A stretch of 26,488 bases of DNA, taken from IMG/VR virus record IMGVR_UViG_3300027901_000225, positions 1 to 26,488 of that record. The stretch is one strand, 5' to 3'. This DNA comes from a virus. This document shows, one piece after another, positions 5,017 to 20,498 of this stretch (position 1 is its first letter; the number at the start of each line of letters is the position of its first letter). Position numbers and translations under genes: made by a program. The notes below the pieces were generated by a model. The model was not told the origin of the DNA. It was given only the letters and a program-made list of their open reading frames with translations, and did no database searches.

Positions 5017-5319
5017 ATGCACGGAGGCAAGCTGAAGATCATGGGCTATACCTACAAGGTCAATCTTGTAGAGGAAGCCAGCGAAATGCGAGCGTCGGGG
5101 CACTTGCATACCGGAAAGCAGGAAATTCGTGTCGCCTTGGATCAATGCGATGAGGGGCGTATCTCGACACTGATCCATGAGGTCATTCACGCCATTCTCT
5201 GGCATCTTCAGGTCGAGCTACCAGAAGAAGACTTGATGCGACTAGAGACTGGACTCTTTGCCTTTCTGAAAGATAATGGGATCGACATATCCAAACTGGA
5301 GTCAATCGTATGCAAGTAG
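5017..5319 (+). CDS. Small HExxH metallopeptidase-like protein
   Basis: This 100-residue protein has the zinc-binding helix H54-E-V-I-H58 in the context STLIHEVIHAILWH, preceded by two beta-rich segments (KIMGYTYKVN and EIRVALDQ) and followed by an acidic helix. This is the layout of the minimal ImmA/IrrE- or SprT-like phage metallopeptidases. Such proteins can cleave host regulators, but small phage versions often have no proven substrate. AAGGAGG at 5004-5010 fixes the start. The gene overlaps the methyltransferase start by ten bases. A third zinc ligand is not obvious; an acidic residue in the LPEED region is a candidate. Confidence 0.8.
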   Translation: MHGGKLKIMGYTYKVNLVEEASEMRASGHLHTGKQEIRVALDQCDEGRISTLIHEVIHAILWHLQVELPEEDLMRLETGLFAFLKDNGIDISKLESIVCK

Positions 5320-6035
5320 ATCTGTATTTTGAGGACTGTTGGTTCACCATGGAGCGAATGAAGATGGACGGGGTCGAGGTCGATCTCGCCATCACGTCGC
5401 CTCCGTATCTGGTCGAGCAGGATTACGAGAAAGATGTGGAGATGGTCGAGTATCAAGATCTGCTATGGTCTACCTATTGGAACCTAGCGTTGGTCCTCAA
5501 ACCCGGAGGATACTTTGTCATCAATTTTGGCGATCAAGCGAGAGGCAAACGCTTCCGTGAGACAGAGACGCATACCACCATTCCCATGAGTGTGACGCAC
5601 TGGGACTGCGGCACTGGCGTCGGCCTAGAACTTCAAGCAACTAGAGTGTGGCGAAAGAAGTTCGCCAGAATGGGGATTCCCTTTGTATGTAATCACTATC
5701 CAAGACCAGTCTTTGATTACGAGCATATCTGGACATGGCGCAAGCCGGACGGAGTCGGCAAGGAAATCGTTAGGGATCGCAAACTTTCTCAAAGGGGCGT
5801 TCTTGAATTTGAGGATGACCACCCGCTCAAGCGGTTCCCTGCGGCCTTTCCTCTCGGGCTACCGAAGTGGGCAATTCAAGTATATTCCGATATCGGAAAC
5901 CTCGTATACGATCCTTTTATGGGATCTGGGACCTCTGGACTGGCTGCAATCAGCCTGGACCGTCGGTTTATAGGCTCCGAGATTGACGAAAATCTGCGAG
6001 ACACCGTCGAGAATTTGCTTGGGTTGAGATCTTGA
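5310..6035 (+). CDS. Orphan DNA methyltransferase (N4-cytosine/N6-adenine, beta class)
   Basis: The 241-residue enzyme has catalytic motif IV T29-S-P-P-Y33 near the N-terminus and the AdoMet-binding motif I D201-P-F-M-G-S-G-T208 near the C-terminus. The IV-then-I order defines the beta class. TSPPY, as opposed to DPPY, is more typical of N4-cytosine enzymes, but N6-adenine cannot be excluded. YPRPVFDYEHIWTWRKP fits the conserved segment between these motifs. No restriction enzyme lies nearby, so it likely protects the phage genome from host restriction or marks DNA for packaging or regulation. It starts inside the metallopeptidase gene (ATG 5310) and its TGA overlaps the -35 box of the head promoter. 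Confidence 0.9.
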   Translation: MQVDLYFEDCWFTMERMKMDGVEVDLAITSPPYLVEQDYEKDVEMVEYQDLLWSTYWNLALVLKPGGYFVINFGDQARGKRFRETETHTTIPMSVTHWDCGTGVGLELQATRVWRKKFARMGIPFVCNHYPRPVFDYEHIWTWRKPDGVGKEIVRDRKLSQRGVLEFEDDHPLKRFPAAFPLGLPKWAIQVYSDIGNLVYDPFMGSGTSGLAAISLDRRFIGSEIDENLRDTVENLLGLRS

Positions 6036-7816: not shown

Positions 7817-9187
7817 ATGGCATACTTAGACGCAGCAAAAATTGCTGCACTTCTCAAGACAGTAGGCCCAGCATCATTTCGACGTGCGATGCTCGTTTTA
7901 CTGCCTGAGATCAACACCGCTATTCAGACCGATGCTGCGGCAGGTCTAGACGCATTACCGGAAACCGCCGGTGTTGCGGAAGCGGAAAAGCTCGTTCAGC
8001 TTGGATCTGACAAAGAAATCGACGCGATGACCGTCGGTGCTCTGTCGTTAGGTGCTGGCGCTGGTACAGAAGTCACGGCTACGGCTGCGGAACTGAACCA
8101 GTTGGCAAGCACTGATCTGGCAGACGAGTTTGCGGCCCTCGAAGGTATGGACACGGAGTTGGGCCTGCTCTCTGGTTTGACCATTGCAGCAGCAACCCTC
8201 AATGCTCTAACGTCCAATCCTGGCAAGCGTGCAATCAATATCCTGCGCGTGGCAGCAGCGGGTGAAGATGGAGAGACCGTAACTATCGGTGACGATACTT
8301 ACGAGCTCGACACGGAAGACGTTGAAAATATCACTGAGGGCAACATTCGGGTGGACGTGTCTGGTGGCACGACTGAGAAGTCCCAAGGTACTCTCACCAT
8401 TGGTGCGCAGGTAACCGCGGGTGATACCTTCACAATCGGCGACAAAGAATTTACGTTTGTTCCGAATGGTACGGCCAACGCTGACGGCGAAGTCAACGTT
8501 GGTGCTGACGAGGCCGGTTCCAAGGCCAACATTGTTAACGCTATCGAAGGTGACGATGGTTGGAATGAGGCCAGCGAGTGGGTGACGTGTGCGGAAGCCT
8601 TTGATGGCGACGATCTCGTGCTCACTGCAATCGTTGGCGGTACTGTGGGTGATGAAATTGCAACGACCGAGACGTTTACCTCCGGGGAAAACGTTTTCGA
8701 TGCCCCAACCCTCGGTACAACCAATGCCGGTGTGGACCCGACGGCAGGTGAAGTTTCCGATGCTCTCATTGCAGCCATCAACGCAAGTGCAACGGAAGAC
8801 GTAACCGCTGTGGACATCGGTGCCAATGAAGTTCTGCTAATCGCAGACGCAGTTGGCGTGGTCGCATTAGCCTGTACAGAGACTCTGGCTGGCGCTAGCA
8901 ACGCTTGGGCAGCCGCAACGATGTATGGCGGCGCTGCACCAGCAGCCGTGAAGATCGTGGCACAGGCTCGTGTTCCCAATGCTACGGAAGTTGCCCTAGG
9001 CAACATACACTTCATGTTCGACTTTACACCTTCCTTTGCGCAAGCACAGGTTCGTGTGACAGCCGATGGAAGTCCGAAGGCATGGGACGGCGCTCTAACA
9101 ATGACCGGTGGGCGAATTTCGCTCGATAACTCCGGTGGCACGGATTGGGCTGATACAGACACCGTGTACGTGATTGCTTGGGCGTAA
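7817..9187 (+). CDS. Modular head-fibre/decoration-like structural protein
   Basis: This 456-residue acidic, Ala/Gly/Thr-rich protein lies between portal and scaffold. A helical N-terminus (1-60) is followed by TEVTATAAELNQL, a signature common in phage head and tail fibre proteins. Residues about 150-375 are beta-rich modules of the 'AGDTFTIGDKEFTF...IVNAIEGDDG' type. One complete module (about 191-305) sits inside a second that begins at about 152 (ETVTIGDDTYEL) and resumes at 306 (TAGEVSDALIAAINAS). The last 80 residues form a separate beta domain. It has strong translation signals (AAGGAGAG). A virion surface or decoration role is the best inference; no capsid protease signature is present. 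Confidence 0.7.
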   Translation: MAYLDAAKIAALLKTVGPASFRRAMLVLLPEINTAIQTDAAAGLDALPETAGVAEAEKLVQLGSDKEIDAMTVGALSLGAGAGTEVTATAAELNQLASTDLADEFAALEGMDTELGLLSGLTIAAATLNALTSNPGKRAINILRVAAAGEDGETVTIGDDTYELDTEDVENITEGNIRVDVSGGTTEKSQGTLTIGAQVTAGDTFTIGDKEFTFVPNGTANADGEVNVGADEAGSKANIVNAIEGDDGWNEASEWVTCAEAFDGDDLVLTAIVGGTVGDEIATTETFTSGENVFDAPTLGTTNAGVDPTAGEVSDALIAAINASATEDVTAVDIGANEVLLIADAVGVVALACTETLAGASNAWAAATMYGGAAPAAVKIVAQARVPNATEVALGNIHFMFDFTPSFAQAQVRVTADGSPKAWDGALTMTGGRISLDNSGGTDWADTDTVYVIAWA

Positions 9188-9980: not shown

Positions 9981-10015
9981 ACTCCTCAATTCTAATTCAT
10001 ACTCATAAAAGGAGT
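9981..10015 (+). promoter_or_regulatory. Possible ribosome-site hairpin before the capsid gene
   Basis: ACTCCT (9981-9986) is complementary to AGGAGT (10010-10015), which contains the Shine-Dalgarno sequence of the capsid gene. Pairing would hide the ribosome site. The stem is only six pairs with a 23-base AT-rich loop, so any effect would be weak. Confidence 0.3.
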
Positions 10016-10023
10016 TGCTCGAA

Positions 10024-11286
10024 ATGGCAATTGCATACGAGACCGGAACGATCTGGTCTTCAACTCTGCCCGCAGGACAGCGTGACTATTACGAGTCATT
10101 GCTACTTGAAGTTCTGCGAACGAAGTCGATTCTTGTTCCGTTTTGTGCGGTCAAGGAAGACTTCCGTGCTCGTGACACTGGCGTAATCATCTATACAGAG
10201 GTCATGGACACATCCCCGAACTGGAACCCCCTGTCCGAGACTGGCATCTGGCTAACGGGTGCGCACCTCGACAGTCGGTCCGTTCAAATCGGACTCGAAA
10301 TTCACGGTGACGTGATCAAGGTGTCCGACTATAATGAGCTGGTGAACTACTGGGCCAATGGTGACCTTCGTGGTCTAGTCAAGGGCAAGCTCGGCCAGAA
10401 CATGGTCGATTATCTTGACATCTTGGCCCGCAATGCGTTCCTCTCCAGCCCATACAAAACGTATGCCGAAGACGCAACGAAACGTACAGAGCTCGTGCAA
10501 GGCGACTTGTTCGACGTTGACCTCGTGGACCTGATGAGGGTACACTTGGAAGAGCGCGAGATCCCTGGCATTTCCAACCCCGGCGACGTTAACCCTGCGA
10601 TCCTGTGCGCAACCACACCTCGTGTGTGCCATGACATTCGCACAGCAGCAGGCTCCAAATGGATTGAGGCACAGGAATATGCTGGCTCCACCCGTCTGTT
10701 CACAGGCGAGGTCGGTATGTGGGGTGGCGTGCGGTTCGTGAAAACGGGTCGCTTGATGCTACGAAACTACGGTCTTCCTTCTGTTCAGAAAGTCCTCGAC
10801 GGCGCGACCGTTGTGGGTCAGGGTGCTGCGGCAACTGTGGACTCGGTCTACACCGTTGGTCAATCAGGTTCAACTCGTTACATCACGCTGGACGCAACCG
10901 CTGGCTTCGAGGCCGGTGATTATATCACCATCCATGACAAGGACGTTCTGGGTGATGACAACGAAGTGCTGGCAGCAGATGGCACGCAAGAGACCAAGCG
11001 CATCATTGAGGTTATTAATGGTACGACCATGTCTCTGGACAGCCCTCTGATGAAGGCACATGACAGTGGCGACAAGGTCACCAAGGGCGTGACAGTTCAC
11101 GCTTCTATCTTTATGGGTGGCCCCGCTGTTGTCTACGGCGTTGGCGAGCGACCGCACCCATTGGTGCTACCGAAGATCGATGATCTCGGTATGGTTCAGC
11201 GGTTCTCTTGGCGCGGCTTTTTGAAAATGCAAATGTTCCGCCCCGAGTACATCGAGGTAGTTGAGTCTGGCGGTACGGTCAACTAA
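10024..11286 (+). CDS. Major capsid protein, N4-gp56-like family
   Basis: The 420-residue product should adopt the HK97 shell fold. It matches the N4-gp56 family layout: an N-terminal segment about attachment to neighbours, the LILARNAFL/TRVCHDIRTAAGS helix region, the YAGSTRLFTGEVGMWGGVRFVKT stretch typical of this family, and a C-terminal RFSWRGFLKMQMFRPEYIEVVES strand. Between about residues 270 and 370 lies an added beta-rich domain (YITLDATAGFEAGDYITIHD, then TTMSLDSPLMKAH and GDKVTKG), probably exposed on the capsid surface. I chose the ATG at 10024; GGAG lies nine bases upstream, and an in-frame TTG at 10015 would add MLE. No maturation protease is recognised nearby. Confidence 0.9.
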   Translation: MAIAYETGTIWSSTLPAGQRDYYESLLLEVLRTKSILVPFCAVKEDFRARDTGVIIYTEVMDTSPNWNPLSETGIWLTGAHLDSRSVQIGLEIHGDVIKVSDYNELVNYWANGDLRGLVKGKLGQNMVDYLDILARNAFLSSPYKTYAEDATKRTELVQGDLFDVDLVDLMRVHLEEREIPGISNPGDVNPAILCATTPRVCHDIRTAAGSKWIEAQEYAGSTRLFTGEVGMWGGVRFVKTGRLMLRNYGLPSVQKVLDGATVVGQGAAATVDSVYTVGQSGSTRYITLDATAGFEAGDYITIHDKDVLGDDNEVLAADGTQETKRIIEVINGTTMSLDSPLMKAHDSGDKVTKGVTVHASIFMGGPAVVYGVGERPHPLVLPKIDDLGMVQRFSWRGFLKMQMFRPEYIEVVESGGTVN

Positions 11287-11967: not shown

Positions 11968-12497
11968 GTGGCATCCACGACGCCGTAATGATCCGCACCC
12001 AAGCAATGTTGCAAGCAGCGCTGATTGACGATATCGACGAAGACGATCCAGCGCGCGCAGGTGTGGTCAGGATCGGTCCACTCCAAGGGGAACCCGAGCC
12101 AGACACCGCTCGTATATCGGTCTGTATCTACGAGAATGATCCCGAAGATATGGAAGGTGGCGAGTGGCTGGATCGAATCTCCGAAGTGGAATGCGGTGGA
12201 GCCGCAACATTCCAGCGACGCTTCACTATCATCAGTCGAGGTCTCTTTGTCAATACAAAAGAGAACCTCACCAATGCCCGAGCATACATGTCCACGCTCA
12301 AAGAGCGCATCGAAATCGCAATTCTGAAGGAACAGTATATCGGGATAGTAGCAGGGAACGAGTATGTTGCTCGGGGGCCTCTGGCCATGGGCATCACCTC
12401 GGTCTTACGTCAGGGTGGTGGTCCGCCCGATTCGTATGACATCTTCCTAAAGATCCGTTTCGAAATTCTCACTACACGAACAGGGGTGTTTACATGA
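11964..12497 (+). CDS. Tail completion/terminator-like protein
   Basis: This 177-residue protein lies between the connector and the tail tube gene, the usual place of head-closure and tail-terminator proteins. It has an N-terminal helix (HDAVMIRTQAMLQAAL), a beta-rich middle (DTARISVCIYEND, TFQRRFTIISRGLF) and an amphipathic helix (LTNARAYMSTLKERIEIAIL), an alpha/beta layout seen in gpU-like terminators. It would cap the tail tube so that it can join the head. Start and stop both overlap neighbours (ATGA at each end), so it is translated in a coupled set with 11296 and 12494. No catalytic motif is present. Confidence 0.65.
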   Translation: MSGIHDAVMIRTQAMLQAALIDDIDEDDPARAGVVRIGPLQGEPEPDTARISVCIYENDPEDMEGGEWLDRISEVECGGAATFQRRFTIISRGLFVNTKENLTNARAYMSTLKERIEIAILKEQYIGIVAGNEYVARGPLAMGITSVLRQGGGPPDSYDIFLKIRFEILTTRTGVFT

Positions 12498-13840
12498 CAG
12501 CAGCAGAAAAGTCCTTTATTGGACTAGCCAAACAGGACGAAAAAGGTACGCCAAACACAACTGACGCAGAGTTCAACTACCTTCTCTTCCGTGCCGGTGG
12601 TGTTGCTCCTCAAAACATCGTGCTTCCGCTTGATGCGGAGGTCGGTGGCGGGGCGATGCTTCGCGACATGGTGAAGGTGGGCGTCACATCTGGCGGAGCT
12701 TTGGACATCATCCCAAGACCGGATACCCTGGGACATTTCCTCTTGGGCGCAATGGGTGACATTGAAACCGCGAACGAAGATGGCGAGAGCTTTAAGCTCA
12801 AGTCCGATGCCATCATGGCGGACGTGTACTTGCAATCGATCCCACAAACTGGCTATGATATCGGTATTTCCAGTCCTCCAACTACCCGAACCTTGATTGT
12901 CAAGGGCACTGAGGGCGGTGAAGGTCCTTTGGCGGGAACTGTCACAGTCTACGGTACCGATGCACTCGATGCTCCATTAGAGGAGGATTTCATCCTCGAT
13001 GGTGATGAGTACATCGTTGGCGAAGAAGAGTTCAAGACAGTCACCGAAGTAGATCTTCCTGTCCGAGTAGACCCGGGCGATATGGTTCGAGTGGGTTGGG
13101 ACGATCCTGCTTACCGACACCTCTTCAAACTTCCGACTGATCAGTTCGATGCTCCGTATTACACGGTGCGTTCTGCGCCTGGTCAGTTGTGGGGCGAGCA
13201 GTTCCAGGACTGCCGCGTAGCGGGCCTAGCAATCACGTTTGCTGGCGCACGCTTTGTTGAAGGTGCTGTAACCTTCATGGGTGGGCTTCCCACTCCAGTC
13301 TCCATCGCAACCTGGGATGCTCTCACCTATCTAGACGAAGGTCCACAGTTCTTAGCTCCGACCTCGCTGGGTATTGAACTGCCTCCAGCAACCGGCCTGA
13401 AAGTCCTATCAGGTTCTGTAGCTTGGGGCTTGGCGATCCCGCTCGATGAGCAGTGGGTTGTCGGTTCATACTCTCCCGATGATTTCGACATCAATCAACG
13501 CTCCATGGTCATTACGATGGCTGTCAAGCTAACGAGTGACACACTCTACAAGAAGTTGATGTACGATGGCGTCGGCGCGGTCTCTGAATGGACAGCAGAA
13601 ATCTACCGGGAAGGTCAAATGCAACTTTCCCTGCGAAGCCCAATCGAAGCATCTACGGGTAACCCGTATGAGCTTACAATCCGTGCGCACGATACAGAGG
13701 ACAACATCGTCTGGTCGGCAGCACCGATTGGATTGCGAGCAGGGCGACAGATCGTGATGGCGGTCACCGGCGTGGTACTCAACACGAGTGCCGGAAATCC
13801 TATCGAAGTCGAACTGGTCAACACCATTCCGGCGTACTAA
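12494..13840 (+). CDS. Tail tube protein with an added beta domain
   Basis: The 448-residue product begins SFIGLAKQDEKGTPNT, matching the start of many siphovirus tail tube proteins (a G.GKE..YGTP-like pattern). It continues with a beta-rich core: LPLDAEVGGGAMLRDMVKVG, GALDIIPRPDTLGHFLLGAMG, and C-terminal strands in which SMVITMAVKL and QMQLSLRSPI alternate. Between about residues 130 and 205 an added module (TLIVKGTEGGEGPLAG, FKTVTEVDLPVRVDPGD) probably projects from the tube. At 448 residues it is larger than a bare tube protein of roughly 150-250. No sheath gene is found next to it, which supports a non-contractile tail. The ATG overlaps the previous stop. Confidence 0.8.
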   Translation: MTAAEKSFIGLAKQDEKGTPNTTDAEFNYLLFRAGGVAPQNIVLPLDAEVGGGAMLRDMVKVGVTSGGALDIIPRPDTLGHFLLGAMGDIETANEDGESFKLKSDAIMADVYLQSIPQTGYDIGISSPPTTRTLIVKGTEGGEGPLAGTVTVYGTDALDAPLEEDFILDGDEYIVGEEEFKTVTEVDLPVRVDPGDMVRVGWDDPAYRHLFKLPTDQFDAPYYTVRSAPGQLWGEQFQDCRVAGLAITFAGARFVEGAVTFMGGLPTPVSIATWDALTYLDEGPQFLAPTSLGIELPPATGLKVLSGSVAWGLAIPLDEQWVVGSYSPDDFDINQRSMVITMAVKLTSDTLYKKLMYDGVGAVSEWTAEIYREGQMQLSLRSPIEASTGNPYELTIRAHDTEDNIVWSAAPIGLRAGRQIVMAVTGVVLNTSAGNPIEVELVNTIPAY

Positions 13841-13850
13841 GATTTCTAAC

Positions 13851-13875
13851 GGGAGGGGAGTACTTCTCCCCTCCC
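13851..13875 (+). other. Intergenic GC-rich hairpin
   Basis: GGGAGGGGAG (13851-13860) pairs perfectly with CTCCCCTCCC (13866-13875) around TACTT, ten base pairs. It is followed by TCATAACAC, so there is no U-tract. It sits between tail tube and tail chaperone genes and could lower expression downstream of the abundant tube protein. Confidence 0.55.
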
Positions 13876-13898
13876 TCATAACACTCTGGAGGCTTCAA

Positions 13899-14345
13899 AT
13901 GAACTTCGGCAAATATGCAGTTTTGCAACCCATCACCTACAACTTCAAGCAGGAACCGGAGTTGTGGTGGAAATTCAAGCCACCTACGTCTGGCGACGAG
14001 TTGACAATGGCTCGTTTTCTCAATCGGGGGCGATTGACGTTAGGCGAGGAAGGTCCTTCGCGTGAAGTTCCTCCCTCTTGGATCGAAGTTGCACACAAGG
14101 AAATTTCCATTATCTTCGCCGGTACAAACATTACCGACGACAAAGATCAACCCATTTTAGCAGACAACGCATCCCCCGAACAGGTGGAAACAATGCTACG
14201 GCTGATGCCGCATGCGATGGTCATGGAAATCTGGGATGCTATCGCTCGACACGTTCCTGGCTGGGGCAATCCAATGCGCCCGCCGGATGAGGACGAAGTC
14301 CCAAACTCGGAGAGCCGGGAGACCGAAAGCGAGATCTCCTTATAA
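13899..14345 (+). CDS. Tail assembly chaperone, unshifted (gpG-like) form
   Basis: The 148-residue product lies between tail tube and tape measure, where siphoviruses encode the chaperone that coats the tape measure during tail assembly. It has a compact N-terminal part with WWKFKPPTSGDELTMARFL, a helical core (PEQVETMLRLMPHAMVMEIWDAI) and an acidic, Ser/Glu-rich tail ending ESEISL. The ATG at 13899 follows CTGGAGG and is preferred over an upstream in-frame start at 13788, which lies inside the tail tube gene. Its last part overlaps a second open frame used for the longer product. Confidence 0.85.
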   Translation: MNFGKYAVLQPITYNFKQEPELWWKFKPPTSGDELTMARFLNRGRLTLGEEGPSREVPPSWIEVAHKEISIIFAGTNITDDKDQPILADNASPEQVETMLRLMPHAMVMEIWDAIARHVPGWGNPMRPPDEDEVPNSESRETESEISL

Positions 14346-14596
14346 CGCTCGAAAACTATGTAAAAGACTACATAGTTTCTGGGGATGATAGCGACCCGCT
14401 GCTCTCGGCACACATCAGTCTGGTGCTACAATCTAAGAATACCGGTGTAGATGTCTTCCCCTCTACGATGGGGGTACTTGATCGACCCATGTTTTTTGAA
14501 CGGTACTTTCGCCACTGGGTAGATGAGGCATACGAAGAACTAGAAGGTTTCTCCTCCCAGCATCAATCTATTGTAAAGAAAGTCACGCAGGCGTGA
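13899..14596 (+). CDS. Tail assembly chaperone, -1 frameshift (gpGT-like) form
   Basis: A second frame, one base back, is open from 14291 to the TGA at 14594-14596 and has no start codon with a good ribosome site. Within the overlap the zero frame reads C_CCA_AAC at 14300-14306 (codons CCA 14301, AAC 14304), which fits the X_XXY_YYZ rule for tandem -1 slippage. The product would be 136 residues of the short form followed by 96 residues starting LGEPGDRKRDLLITLENY and ending KKVTQA, 232 in all. This is the same design as lambda gpG/gpGT, where a minor longer form bridges the tape measure and the tube protein. The site, the frame and the position between tube and tape measure all agree. Confidence 0.85.
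14353..14378 (+). other. Perfect nine-pair hairpin in the frameshift extension
   Basis: AAACTATGT (14353-14361) pairs with ACATAGTTT (14370-14378) around an eight-base loop. It begins eight bases after the zero-frame TAA and 47 bases after the slippery site, so it is too far to be a classical stimulator but could affect ribosome flow or message stability. Confidence 0.45.
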
Positions 14597-14654: not shown

Positions 14655-17600
14655 ATGTCTACTGTAAGAAAATCAGTTTTCACAGCATGGTACAATGCCA
14701 TGCGAGATATAGAAGAAGAATTGCCCGAGCAGGCATTGAATGCGTTAGTGCGTTCTGTAAAGTCTGCGCACGGTCAATTGGAGATACCCTTTACAGAGCC
14801 CTGGGCTCCTGAATGGGGTGCGGCTCCAGCGACCGCACGTCAGGCTAGCGAGCGCATTTTTGGCGTTATGAACCCTGCACTACGAGCGATTGCCGCTACC
14901 TTACCGGAGTCTACCTACGAAGATGCCTACCAAGACATGGTAGTGGGTATGTACGAGGCTATCGAGACATGGGATGAGAAGAAAGGCTCTGCCGGTGCGT
15001 ATTTAGGATCACGGGCTTTCTACCACTCATCTCAACGAGCCCGAGCAGAGCTGGATATGCCTGCACCGGTCTCTCGTCTAGGTCTCGACCTTGAGCGATT
15101 GGAAGAGCAAGCTCCGTCCGATCCTTTACAGGCTCTGAGGGGTGTCAATGTCGTAGACTTTGCTGGCGAGGTAGCACCGTACACTCGTCCTCCATGGTAT
15201 CAGGAAGTACCAGGGAAGATCCCTACGGGCGGTCTTCCGATCTTTTCATTGGGAAGAAAATTCCGCCTATCGGTGGCGGGTTTTGAAAAGCTGATTCCTT
15301 ATTTTGAACAAGGGATCGGATCTATTCAGCGCGAAGAGGTATATCCTATCAGCCTGTCTCCACAGCAGGATTATACTCCGGGGGTTCAGTTACGACAGTT
15401 CTTACAGGATGTGCGCAAGCAGACTCAAGGTTTTCTACTCGGTCGAGAACCTGCCGAGCTTCACCGAGGCAGCACTATTCAGGATTTCGAGGACTTACTG
15501 ACCTACCGTATCGACGCTGAGGCTCCATCGTGGACAGATCAGGTACGGGCGCACACCGCTAGCCACATAGGGTGGTCCTTAAGTCTGGGTCGAAGCCAGT
15601 TTCCAGAATTTGGCGGTCGGGTGGGTGGATTACAGAGTGTCCAAACACCTTATGATGCACCTCTCATTGGTCGCTACAGTTATGTTCACACTGGCCGAGA
15701 GGCACCAGCAGAGCAGAGACTACTGGGTCTACTAGGAGAGTCCACGGCAACCACACAGGCACGCATTATGTATGCTCTTGGCATCGCCCGTGGTCAACAC
15801 CCTCGTTATGTTTCCGGCGATCCTAGACAAACCAGAGAATGGCAGCGGGCCCAAGTGCAATTAGAACGCATGGGCCATCGTCAACAGTTCACCTATCTCC
15901 TCCCGGATTACGGTGGCGTGCCAGCCGAGTCTCAATATCTCGGAGGTCGTATTCCGGTATCGGAAACTCCACTTATTACTCCATCTGCTTTGGCTATAGA
16001 TCCTGCGATAACCCATCCGTCCCCGTCAGCGACACGCCTTCCATTTACCGTTCAGCCTCAAGAAGCACCTGCTGGTGCTCCTATGAAAGCACTGATGAAG
16101 CCGCCTGGATTTACCGGCGCGGCAGGGGCCTTGGTAAATGCGCTGGAGAGCTCACAAAGTCTCTTCCATGTATCAGTAGAGTCATGGATCAAAGAAAACA
16201 GTCGTGCCATGGGGCGACTAGCAGGCGACCGTCCACTCATTGACGGTAAGATGCAGTTGGCCCTGTCTGTCGTTTGGGGTCAACGATCCCCTCAAGAATT
16301 GCAACATACCATTTTACATGAACTTGGCCATGCGCCCGAGTTTCTCCAAGGGGGCAAGTACGCCACATTTATGAAGCAAGCCTTTGGCGATCCAGATATT
16401 TTAGATCGATTCGATCCCAAAGAGCGGCGTTGGTATGAAGCCATGGCTGAGTCATTTACAGCCTATTTCCAGGGCGAGGATATACCTGAAAAGCAACGTC
16501 TCGTGATTGAGGCATTGTTGGCCGAAGAGCCTGAGCTACGTAATGCCATGCTGTCTGTTGCCAATGTCGATATCAAGACATTAGAGACGATGGGTGAGCG
16601 ACCTGTTGCTGGCCCGGCGGGGCGGTCTGTCGAGATTGGCGTTGGTGATCTACCCAAGTATCTTCAAGACCCCCGCAATTTACCCGTCTGGGCCACAGAC
16701 CCAGGCTTACGCAATTGGATTCAACGAGGTATCCCTGTCGTACCTCCTGCCTTGTGGGAATCTGTCACACCTGAAGCGCGAGAGGCACTATTTGCCATGC
16801 GCGGTACTGGCAACGCTGAGGCACTGGCAGGAGTGATTGAGGGATACGGCCTCAAAGCGAGCTACGAAGAAGCCGCAGTAGGTGCTGGTGTACCTGGCGC
16901 ATTTCAGGATTGGAATAATGAATCTCTAAAGGCGCAGATTAAGACACGTGAAGCACAGGCGGCTAAGGCAGCGGACTCCACTCGCCAGACCGTGGATGGA
17001 GCCAGAACGGTTGCCACAGACCCGGCCAAAGCGACGGCATCAACTTATGCAGGATCTCAGGAGGGTCAATACGGTAGTGCATTCCGACGACCCGCAGGAG
17101 CTCCTCCGCCGCCAACGGAAGGTCCACCTCCCGTTGAGCCTGGAACAACTTTACCGGACGTAGATACCACTCGCCCTACTCGTTTACCTGCGGGCGGTGC
17201 AGTTTCGCTCGAACATTGGCAAGGAGCCATTGCTCATGGTCGGGAAGTTCTTGCGGCCACACGACCTTCGTCGGGTGGCGTTGCGGGCTATCCTGCGGGC
17301 GATGTTTACACCGACGCTCCGGGTGAAAAAATACTTATGAAGCCGGAGCACATAGCACGAGCGCGCGGGCTAGCGACACAGGCTTTTGAATCAGTAGCGG
17401 GTACGCCGGTACCGCGTGGTACTGCCGGTAGCGCAGTCGGTACTCATGCTGACCGAGCAAAACAGGCATTTGACAATCTAACCAAGAAGTTCGTGGATAC
17501 GTATGTCAAAGAGATGGAGGACAGCGGTCAAAAACTGACACCTGAAATGCAGGAAGACGTTCGGCATCAAGCTCGTAGAATTGTGGGCACAGGCAGAGAT

Positions 17601-20498
17601 TTCTTGTATCGAGTTGAGCGAGCCATGTCTGATAAACTTGGTGGCTCACGTGCTGGTTCCCGATGGAAGGCAGAGAGAATTGGTGCAGCCGAGCTTGAGC
17701 AAATGTCCCAAGTGCCGGGTTTTGAGGCATTGCAGACACAGATCGCACAAGCTGGCAACGTAGGAACTCTTGCCGCAGGGGGCGGTTTTATTGAAGGAAC
17801 AGGCAACTTGGCCGGAATGGACTTCCGCGTACCACCTACTCCTCCAGGAGGAAGGCCATTTCAACGCGATGCCGCAGGTGGTCAACAAGGCGGTAACCTC
17901 TGGCGACGCATGGGCGCAGCCGGTAGTGCGTTATATGGTATGTATATCGCTCGCCGATTCTGGGGCTATACGGGTGATCCGGCCATACAGGCCATGCAAG
18001 AGTATCAGCAGTTATCCTATCAGTGGGGGCCTACCACTGGAGCTGGCATGAGACCAGAGGGTCAAGCGGTACAGCAGCGAGCTCTTGCACAGTATTACGA
18101 AGGTCTGGGGGCATGGCAGCAGTTTGGTGGGATTGCAGGTGCGGGACGAGGGTTTATGGCTACACCCGCTGGTGGTCGCCTAACTGCCACGGCTGAAGTT
18201 GCTGGCGGTCTGGGTATCGTAGCACAGGTTCTGGGTGGTAGCCTCGGGCCTGAGATGACTCAGTTTTTGACCATGGGTGCCACGAAGGGTATTCCTGCTA
18301 TTGGCATGGCAGGCACCTATGCTGCCGCAGGCTTACTGGCTTTCGCTGGTATCAACGAGGGTCTCAACGCGGTTCTGGGCCAAAACATGGGTATGGCGGA
18401 TCGTGTTGGGTCGTCCTTTCAAGCGCTTGGAAGATTTATATACTCCGGTATGTCTCCAGAACAACAGCAGGCAATGTTCACACAAGGTGCCCCAGGCGCG
18501 GAATGGCTCACTAAGGATTTCGAGGCTGAGGCTCAAGCGGAAGGTCTGACGGGTCTGACGAAGCTCTCCGATAAGACCGGACTGGCTATAGATGACCCTC
18601 GGCTAAGCGAGGCCGCAATGGTTGCCATGCGGATCACTGGCCAGGCCAGCGATCATCCCACGACACTACGTGTGGCCAAGATGATCGCATCGCGTATGAC
18701 AGAGGAGGGTGCTTCGGCAAGTAGTATCGGCACTGGTATTCTCAGTTACATGTCCACCAAGGGCGCACGAGTAGGTGATATCAATGCCGCTCGCTATGCG
18801 TGGGACTATACAAAACTCTCACCGGAAGCGCGGGCTGAAGTTGATGAGACGAGTGCTCGCCACCAGCAAGTAATGAGCATGTTCCGTGCGATTTGGCCCA
18901 ATATGGACTATGGTGATCTAAGTGCATTTGCTGGCAGGATGCCCTCGCTAGGTTTTGCCCAGCGACAGTATGGATACGCAGCGCGTATGGAAACCATGGG
19001 CGTTAGCGAGACTGTGGGGCAGGGCTGGAGTAGCGAGTTGATGACTATGGCTCCGGCTAGATCTGTTTCTATTATGGCAGGAGCCGAGACTATCGGACAG
19101 TATCTAACCCCAGCGCAATTTGGTGCGCATACGCCTGCGATACGAGATTTTCTGCAAGATATGACTATGGCGCAACGTACAATCTGGCAGGGCATGGCCG
19201 AGGGTGATCCGGCTGCGTGGAGCTTGCAGTACCGTGCTACAGGTGGCGCTGCGGGCATTCCATTCATGGATGCAATGGGACAGCCTATTTATGAAACGAG
19301 CATGGCTGGCATGGGCACTATGGCCCAGCGAGCAGCAGGCCAATTCGGTATCAATCCAATGTTGGCGGGTAGAATTACCCAAGCGGCTCAGGGTGGACCT
19401 GTTACGGGTTATCATGTTGCACAAGCGTTAGGGCTGTCTCAACAAGGACAAGAATACTTCCAACAGAATCCACAGGCTGGAATGCAGGATTATCGCTGGG
19501 CAATGCAACAGCGAATGGGCCAACTCCAGATGGGCTCTATAGGTCTACAATACCAAGGTATTCTCGCCCAACAGCAGTACCTCTGGGGCGGTGGGCAATG
19601 GACGGGTACTCCTGCTCCTGGTTCTATGTGGGGCATGGAAGATGTCATGCGGGGTATGCAGAACCAGGCTCAGATGGCCGGGTTTGGCTCCACCTTACAG
19701 CGTATGGACACTGGGGCTATGTTCGCTCGCCAGCAGGAAGCTATGGGCTGGGAGCGGATGCAGCTACAGCAGCAGTGGCAAGGCTACACGATGGGCTTCC
19801 AGCGTCAAGGTCAGCTTCAGCGGCGTGGCTGGGCTCGGGAGGACTGGCAGTATCAAGACACGATGCGCTCTCTCCAATTTGGCTGGGGTATGGAAGACCT
19901 CGACGAAGCCATTCGGATGTCTTCTGGTAGACAACGCCGGACGTTGGTGAAACAGCGTGAGCGAATGACGCTGGGCCAGAACCTTGAGGAAACTCAAATC
20001 GAGCGTCAAAGAGCGCGTCAAGAAGAGATGTGGGCTCGTGAAGACGAGATGTACCAGAAACAGATGGAATACATTGCTCACATCACCGAGATGGACGAAG
20101 ACCAGTTCAAGATGAACGTAGAGCAGCGAGAAGAGCTCTACGAGATGGACAGGGAAGAACTCAAGCGTCGGCTTGAGGAGTACAAGGAGCAGTATGCTCT
20201 TCAAACCCAGATCATCGATAAGCAACGCCAGCATCAGGCTGATGAACTTGAACGTCAGAAGGCCATGCTGGGCATTCAAATGGAAATTGCCCAGATACAG
20301 AAAGAACTGGCCGAGGACGAAAAGAAAGTCAAGGACAGTTGGAGGAAGGACATGGCCGAGTTCAAAGATATGGGCACTCTCCATCGTGCCGAGATGGTGG
20401 CGAAGGCTATTAGCAGTATGGCCAAGACCCTCAATGGCGTAAACATCTTCAAGATCCAGCAGCTCGAAGAGATGTTGCTGGCCGCGGACTTTGACTAA
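14655..20498 (+). CDS. Tape measure protein with sigma-like and metallopeptidase-like domains
   Basis: At 1947 residues this is by far the longest gene, in the standard place after the chaperone. The C-terminal third (about 1620-1947) is Gln/Met/Trp-rich and then strongly coiled-coil. Hydrophobic segments near 1087-1100 and 1180-1241 fit the membrane-inserting part of tape measures. Two additions stand out. Residues about 60-142 (EDAYQDMVVGMYEAIETWDEKKGS and the MPAPVSRL end) resemble sigma70 region 2. Residues H555-E-L-G-H559 with E595 or E599 (YEAMAES) form a gluzincin-like zinc site. A proline-rich linker follows at about 815-840. If tape length scales at the known 1.5 angstroms per residue, the tail could reach about 290 nm. 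AGGA at 14643-14646 serves the ATG. Confidence 0.9.
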   Translation: MSTVRKSVFTAWYNAMRDIEEELPEQALNALVRSVKSAHGQLEIPFTEPWAPEWGAAPATARQASERIFGVMNPALRAIAATLPESTYEDAYQDMVVGMYEAIETWDEKKGSAGAYLGSRAFYHSSQRARAELDMPAPVSRLGLDLERLEEQAPSDPLQALRGVNVVDFAGEVAPYTRPPWYQEVPGKIPTGGLPIFSLGRKFRLSVAGFEKLIPYFEQGIGSIQREEVYPISLSPQQDYTPGVQLRQFLQDVRKQTQGFLLGREPAELHRGSTIQDFEDLLTYRIDAEAPSWTDQVRAHTASHIGWSLSLGRSQFPEFGGRVGGLQSVQTPYDAPLIGRYSYVHTGREAPAEQRLLGLLGESTATTQARIMYALGIARGQHPRYVSGDPRQTREWQRAQVQLERMGHRQQFTYLLPDYGGVPAESQYLGGRIPVSETPLITPSALAIDPAITHPSPSATRLPFTVQPQEAPAGAPMKALMKPPGFTGAAGALVNALESSQSLFHVSVESWIKENSRAMGRLAGDRPLIDGKMQLALSVVWGQRSPQELQHTILHELGHAPEFLQGGKYATFMKQAFGDPDILDRFDPKERRWYEAMAESFTAYFQGEDIPEKQRLVIEALLAEEPELRNAMLSVANVDIKTLETMGERPVAGPAGRSVEIGVGDLPKYLQDPRNLPVWATDPGLRNWIQRGIPVVPPALWESVTPEAREALFAMRGTGNAEALAGVIEGYGLKASYEEAAVGAGVPGAFQDWNNESLKAQIKTREAQAAKAADSTRQTVDGARTVATDPAKATASTYAGSQEGQYGSAFRRPAGAPPPPTEGPPPVEPGTTLPDVDTTRPTRLPAGGAVSLEHWQGAIAHGREVLAATRPSSGGVAGYPAGDVYTDAPGEKILMKPEHIARARGLATQAFESVAGTPVPRGTAGSAVGTHADRAKQAFDNLTKKFVDTYVKEMEDSGQKLTPEMQEDVRHQARRIVGTGRDFLYRVERAMSDKLGGSRAGSRWKAERIGAAELEQMSQVPGFEALQTQIAQAGNVGTLAAGGGFIEGTGNLAGMDFRVPPTPPGGRPFQRDAAGGQQGGNLWRRMGAAGSALYGMYIARRFWGYTGDPAIQAMQEYQQLSYQWGPTTGAGMRPEGQAVQQRALAQYYEGLGAWQQFGGIAGAGRGFMATPAGGRLTATAEVAGGLGIVAQVLGGSLGPEMTQFLTMGATKGIPAIGMAGTYAAAGLLAFAGINEGLNAVLGQNMGMADRVGSSFQALGRFIYSGMSPEQQQAMFTQGAPGAEWLTKDFEAEAQAEGLTGLTKLSDKTGLAIDDPRLSEAAMVAMRITGQASDHPTTLRVAKMIASRMTEEGASASSIGTGILSYMSTKGARVGDINAARYAWDYTKLSPEARAEVDETSARHQQVMSMFRAIWPNMDYGDLSAFAGRMPSLGFAQRQYGYAARMETMGVSETVGQGWSSELMTMAPARSVSIMAGAETIGQYLTPAQFGAHTPAIRDFLQDMTMAQRTIWQGMAEGDPAAWSLQYRATGGAAGIPFMDAMGQPIYETSMAGMGTMAQRAAGQFGINPMLAGRITQAAQGGPVTGYHVAQALGLSQQGQEYFQQNPQAGMQDYRWAMQQRMGQLQMGSIGLQYQGILAQQQYLWGGGQWTGTPAPGSMWGMEDVMRGMQNQAQMAGFGSTLQRMDTGAMFARQQEAMGWERMQLQQQWQGYTMGFQRQGQLQRRGWAREDWQYQDTMRSLQFGWGMEDLDEAIRMSSGRQRRTLVKQRERMTLGQNLEETQIERQRARQEEMWAREDEMYQKQMEYIAHITEMDEDQFKMNVEQREELYEMDREELKRRLEEYKEQYALQTQIIDKQRQHQADELERQKAMLGIQMEIAQIQKELAEDEKKVKDSWRKDMAEFKDMGTLHRAEMVAKAISSMAKTLNGVNIFKIQQLEEMLLAADFD

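Follow-up and report, generated by a model that had tools for sequence, protein, structure and literature searches.

A sigma70 domain 2-like module at the head of a phage tape measure protein

The tape measure protein (TMP) encoded in a 26,488-base virus record almost certainly carries at its head a homologue of sigma70-family domain 2 (sigma2), one that is apparently ancestral in its clade of uncultured long-tailed phages and that purifying selection maintains. The record, hereafter the window, is a metagenomic fragment. Most discussion of TMPs treats them as rulers and channel formers. A conserved sigma domain at the TMP end expected just ahead of the DNA would couple DNA entry to host transcription control. 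If the module is structural instead, it clearly exemplifies the reuse of a transcription-factor domain in the virion.

Gene order and length place the 1947-aa ORF in the TMP class, with a tail tube gene on its 5' side and tail tip-like genes on its 3' side; none of the family-model scans of this ORF gives a TMP name. It sits in the siphovirus TMP slot because the genes from terminase to tail tube stand upstream, namely terminase, methylase, portal, scaffold-like, major capsid, SU10-type adaptor, and tail tube genes. The ORF 3' of the TMP is Phage_Tail_Tip-like at 21.7 bits (cut-off 22). Two ORFs (13788-14345 and 14423-14596, the latter in the -1 frame) separate the tail tube gene from the TMP, and the interval 13788-14596 is the usual slot for tail assembly chaperone genes that rely on a programmed frameshift. 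A DNA N6/N4 methylase gene (5310-6035; Pfam 3.8e-24) has the terminase on one side and the portal on the other, and a 456-aa ORF (7817-9187) flanked by the portal and scaffold-like genes resembles phrog_18828, a function-less family (E 2.2e-27). Further along the TMP, HELGH (residues 555-559) and AMAESF (residues 596-601; 16317-16460 with the former) resemble a zinc-metalloprotease HExxH with a Glu further on. Pfam SprT-like reaches only E 0.079 on the HELGH region, and one of eight relatives examined (L007) has the HExxH string, in a different context.

Table 1. Features of the window discussed in the text. Residue numbers refer to the TMP.
Feature	Coordinates	Strand	Basis and remarks
Major capsid protein gene	10015..11286	+	PHROG 1357, Pfam Phage_capsid_3; handle for finding relatives
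Tail tube protein gene (context)	12494..13840	+	Pfam Phage_tube_2, E 2.8e-10
TMP ORF (P0001)	14655..20498	+	1947 aa; position and length
Sigma70 domain 2-like (sigma2) module, residues ~20-134	14712..15056	+	Pfam, family profile against PDB, AlphaFold and structure comparison
First helix of module, residues 25-37	14727..14765	+	Model; superposes on first helix of sigma domain 2
Region 2.1-like helix, residues 61-81	14835..14897	+	Model, structural and sequence alignment
Region 2.2-like helix, residues 85-103	14907..14963	+	Model, sequence alignment; carries D90, Q93, D94
Region 2.3/2.4-like helix, residues 113-133	14991..15053	+	Model, sequence alignment; basic, carries Y116

The preliminary description had proposed a sigma70 region 2-like segment at the TMP head, and this segment is real. 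Pfam Sigma70_r2 (PF04542) matched TMP residues 1-200 at E 1.3e-5 and 25.3 bits, above the curated cut-off of 24 and beyond chance, and matched residues 49-177 at 26.1 bits. By score, the isolated domain thus belongs to PF04542 (25.3-26.1 bits versus 24), with the full 1947-aa ORF slightly below the cut-off at 21.8 bits. The peptide on which the proposal was built lies where it was said to lie in the TMP ORF (Y88-E-D90-A-Y-Q93-D94 ... W106-D-E-K-K-G111 ... G114-A-Y116). The sigma-like stretch at residues ~60-142 is also present, but the fold is larger than that and runs from ~20 to ~134. Of the proposed STYA-like segment, AGAY is there and the usual Phe is missing in the window; most relatives read F-x-x-(Y/F/H) at this position. 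The VRIP-like end assigned to MPAPVSRL (residues 134-141) was discarded, as model confidence drops there and the string is absent from L004, the closest relative.

Searched alone against the PDB with phmmer, the single TMP sequence matched no sigma factor, and we therefore gathered relatives. The TMP diverges too fast to serve as a direct query, and the well-conserved major capsid gene was used to find them. Single N-terminal proteins used as queries picked up nothing beyond the contig they came from or its identical twin, and the variability of the module alignment ruled out a pattern scan. The capsid protein led to 55 viral loci and four contigs from metagenome-assembled genomes (MAGs), and taking the largest ORF downstream of the capsid in each relative gave ~30 distinct TMPs. 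Six N-termini served as the seed of an HMM, which after iteration over the TMPs alone resolved one common module of ~75 columns near the TMP head in ~25 of 30 relatives. When this TMP-only HMM was run against 5,854 phage ORFs, nothing beyond the TMP modules appeared except one row at E 0.49. The capsid-positive MAG contigs were binned to Anaerolineae (two), Deltaproteobacteria (Myxococcota; one), and Lentisphaerota (one), where a bin is not proof of a host.

The capsid tree groups the window, L004, and L005 with L017, and on it the rows labelled module-less require four changes. One of these rows, L051, resembles a degenerate copy by eye. A single ancestral module with approximately three losses is the simplest reading. 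A sub-clade adjoining the window's (L018, L020, L052, L054) has another TMP N-terminus that is free of the sigma2 module, and its members are natural "without" variants for comparison. Distant phages at ~25% capsid identity (Bacteroides phage BS162P1, Streptomyces phage Kumquat, and gut phages) held no profile-detectable module. A comparison of L010 with L012 shows saturated synonymous sites and a dN of 0.27 for the module, against 0.36 for the remaining TMP. The module is thus under purifying selection, with no special conservation relative to the remaining TMP. In L062 (15067-15282) and L051, stretches rich in V-S-L-E/D follow the sigma2 module and look by eye like the SLD segment found after region 2 of some sigma factors.

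We then turned to the family as a whole for comparison with sigma factors. Scanned singly at E ≤ 1, 8 of 24 members matched Sigma70_r2, and any other family matched at most one member. A second, distant member, L013, reached 30.1 bits when scanned by itself, above the cut-off, over profile positions 4-69 of 71. Against all PDB sequences, a profile of the 24 modules returned sigma factors in 34 of its 37 matches at E ≤ 10 (best 2.2e-4), and sigma factors still came out on top when the window, L004, and L005 were left out of the profile. Contrary to one refuting outcome named in the preliminary description, the profile searches, Pfam and family profile against the PDB alike, gave significant sigma-factor matches. 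Across 396 genomes of the class of G002 (E ≤ 1e-6), the profile found, besides the G002 phage TMP, five ORFs whose lengths (362-586 aa) are those of principal sigma factors. Among 684 ORFs around the sigma loci of four MAGs, all 15 matches at E < 0.01 were sigma ORFs, two of them (L071 and L081) assigned by their listed lengths of 257 and 240 aa, outside the labelling pattern. Neither 100 column-permuted profiles nor the reversed profile gave any sigma match at E < 0.01 in the same 684 ORFs.

The predicted structure points the same way. AlphaFold2, given TMP residues 1-200 and 22 family rows, returned a model with block means of ≥ 88 from residue 31 to 130 and the four helices shown in Table 1, recovering the helical bundle of sigma region 2 and not the unrelated fold that the preliminary description named as its other refutation. 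The Foldseek and VIA-align lists for this model are almost entirely sigma domain 2, and the best structural-alignment rows begin at TMP residues 18-26. The model superposed on SigB with Z 11.8 and rmsd 1.5 Å over 88 residues, on RpoS with Z 11.1 and 2.1 Å over 91 residues, and on RpoE with Z 10.4 and 3.2 Å over 97 residues. In a viral structure library it matched phage sigma factors. A model of L012, which has ~20% identity and was built without the window's clade, was again sigma2 (best Z 8.9, 3.2 Å, 99 residues), so that the helical fold of sigma domain 2 is present in the predicted models of both. Because Foldseek E-values are weak one by one (best 0.045) and Z is inflated for helical bundles, the structural argument draws its weight from the near-exclusive presence of sigma domain 2 in the lists and from their match to the sequence evidence.

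We next asked which functional residues of a sigma factor the module retains. Window residues D90, Q93, and D94 occupy what we take to be the positions of E. coli D403, Q406, and E407, presumably the region 2.2 residues with which sigma docks on RNA polymerase, and Y116 occupies what we take to be the position of Y430. When 24 family members were aligned to the sigma factors of the MAGs, an acidic residue was found at the D403 position in 20, Gln at the Q406 position in 11, and an acidic residue at the E407 position in ~4. Gln at Q406 and an acidic residue at E407 are invariant or almost so in the aligned sigma factors. L029 and L031, both deep branches, have acidic-Gln-Glu at the docking positions. 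The family also keeps Gly/Ala at G411, an aromatic residue preceding D/N-P-x-x-G, F-x-x-(Y/F/H), and a terminal Arg. As in sigma, the 2.2-like helix of the window is acidic and its 2.3/2.4-like helix is basic. Sigma70_r4, the region for the -35 element, was absent from the window and 15 related records, bar one sub-threshold match elsewhere in one record; in these records, then, no region 4 of the kind found in a working sigma factor accompanies the module. A search of 18 related records, fragments of at most 70 kb, found no separate sigma region 2.

In cellular sigma factors, sigma2 is the principal domain for binding core polymerase and reading the -10 element (PMC2988020). Ejection of the TMP probably accompanies that of the DNA. 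In the virion its N-terminal end would point to the head, beside the leading DNA end, so that the sigma2 module would leave the tail last and enter the cell with the DNA, directly before it. The module might then meet RNA polymerase at once on entry. Its region 2.2-like helix would dock on the beta' clamp helices (coiled coil) of host polymerase, the mode used by sigma2 in cellular sigma factors and in T4 gp55. The outcome could be a host polymerase tied to the incoming genome, or a host sigma displaced from its site at the start of infection, with phage transcription promoted or host transcription merely blocked. As no region 4 was detected, the module would not read the -35 element. We give nearly even chances to the statement that the module docks on host RNA polymerase after entering with the DNA, polymerase contact included. 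The fuller proposal, that TMP-delivered sigma2 captures host polymerase for the entering genome or displaces host sigma before any phage gene expression, is put forward more tentatively.

Several observations count for polymerase contact: the frequencies of the acidic residue at D403 and of Gln at Q406, together with D90-Q93-D94 in the window; the sigma-like pairing of an acidic 2.2 helix with a basic 2.3/2.4 helix; the existence of T4 gp55, a working phage protein with sigma2 only that acts on the beta' coiled coil; and the lack of a separate sigma region 2 in the 18 related records. Against it count the missing region 4, conservation of the module no better than that of the remaining TMP, its absence from some relatives, and the need for several folded copies to fit or unfold in a tail lumen ~4 nm wide. 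The docking residues cut both ways. Losses of Q406 and E407 in many members argue against a strict sigma-like dock throughout the family; the window and some deep branches have kept both, which favors such a dock in at least part of it.

The same erosion lends plausibility to another explanation, in which a sigma2 domain captured long ago now plays a virion role and polymerase contact has been lost. At the head-tail joint, such a module might bind the single- or double-stranded end of the DNA; alternatively, it might pack on tail chaperones, terminator, or neck proteins. Its position at the TMP head would suit a site by the DNA end or terminator. We regard this as a serious possibility that falls somewhat short of an even chance. 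Docking residues are eroded in many members with the fold and core positions retained, and the basic 2.3/2.4 helix is kept. Members bearing Gln at Q406 are scattered over the capsid tree, with at least five forced changes, as drift from an original role predicts. However, the acidic D403 position and, less often, Gln at Q406 persist at the frequencies given above, including in the deep branches L029 and L031, and the sub-clade without the module implies that tail assembly as such does not need it.

Far less credible is that the module is an unrelated helical bundle resembling sigma2 by chance. Single members do score near or under the threshold, and individual Foldseek E-values and Z are open to the reservations noted above. 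Yet the TMP-only profile recovers sigma factors and little else in three independent sets, shuffled and reversed profiles recover none, dropping the window's clade leaves the result unchanged, and the models of the window and L012 agree. On the strength of the family-wide profiles, shuffles, and models, we discarded this explanation as very improbable. A chimeric contig or wrong start codon fusing a sigma gene fragment to the TMP might be suspected in a metagenomic fragment, but this is next to impossible and was refuted by independent relatives, as ~25 distinct TMPs, drawn from many samples and including ones on MAG contigs, share this fusion, and the frame is open over the junction with a plausible ribosome-binding site before the ATG at 14655.

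Returning to the sigma2 homologue with a possible polymerase contact, no precedent was found for its fusion to a TMP. The literature searched, mostly without subscription papers and with no bioRxiv preprints, did not yield a sigma domain in a TMP, and the passages of phage genome papers examined showed none. No annotated phage record showed such a fusion, and tblastn with three members against 50,697 phage records gave weak matches at best, some to ordinary phage sigma genes. TMPs connect the head-proximal part of the tail to its distal part and are probable contributors to a DNA conduit across the inner membrane (PMC9022992), and once ejected they insert in the membrane (PMC13277306). TMPs with added motifs thought to act in infection are described in PMC13277306 and references therein; the extra motifs covered there are C-terminal or hydrolases, with no sigma-like one among them. 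The sigma2-bearing TMP lends itself to direct testing, as it combines a small soluble domain with a docking site already known on RNA polymerase and with natural variants that either have or lack the docking residues.

The module can be placed beside three further known systems. Like cellular sigma factors (SigA, SigB, RpoS, FliA, and the ECF factor RpoE), it has the fold and signature of regions 2.1-2.4; unlike them, it has no detected region 4, lacks the region 2.3 aromatic pair of principal sigmas, and has partly lost its docking residues. T4 gp55 is likewise a phage protein whose sigma70 similarity is confined to domain 2, and it docks on the beta' coiled coil as a promoter-recognition subunit (PMC2988020). 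However, gp55 is synthesized in the infected cell as a free protein, whereas the module is fused to the head of a TMP. N4-like phages come closest to the proposed mode of delivery, as PMC12633501 describes a virion-carried RNA polymerase that is ejected with the DNA. Whole polymerases are delivered there, whereas here a sigma domain only would enter the cell and would depend on the host enzyme.
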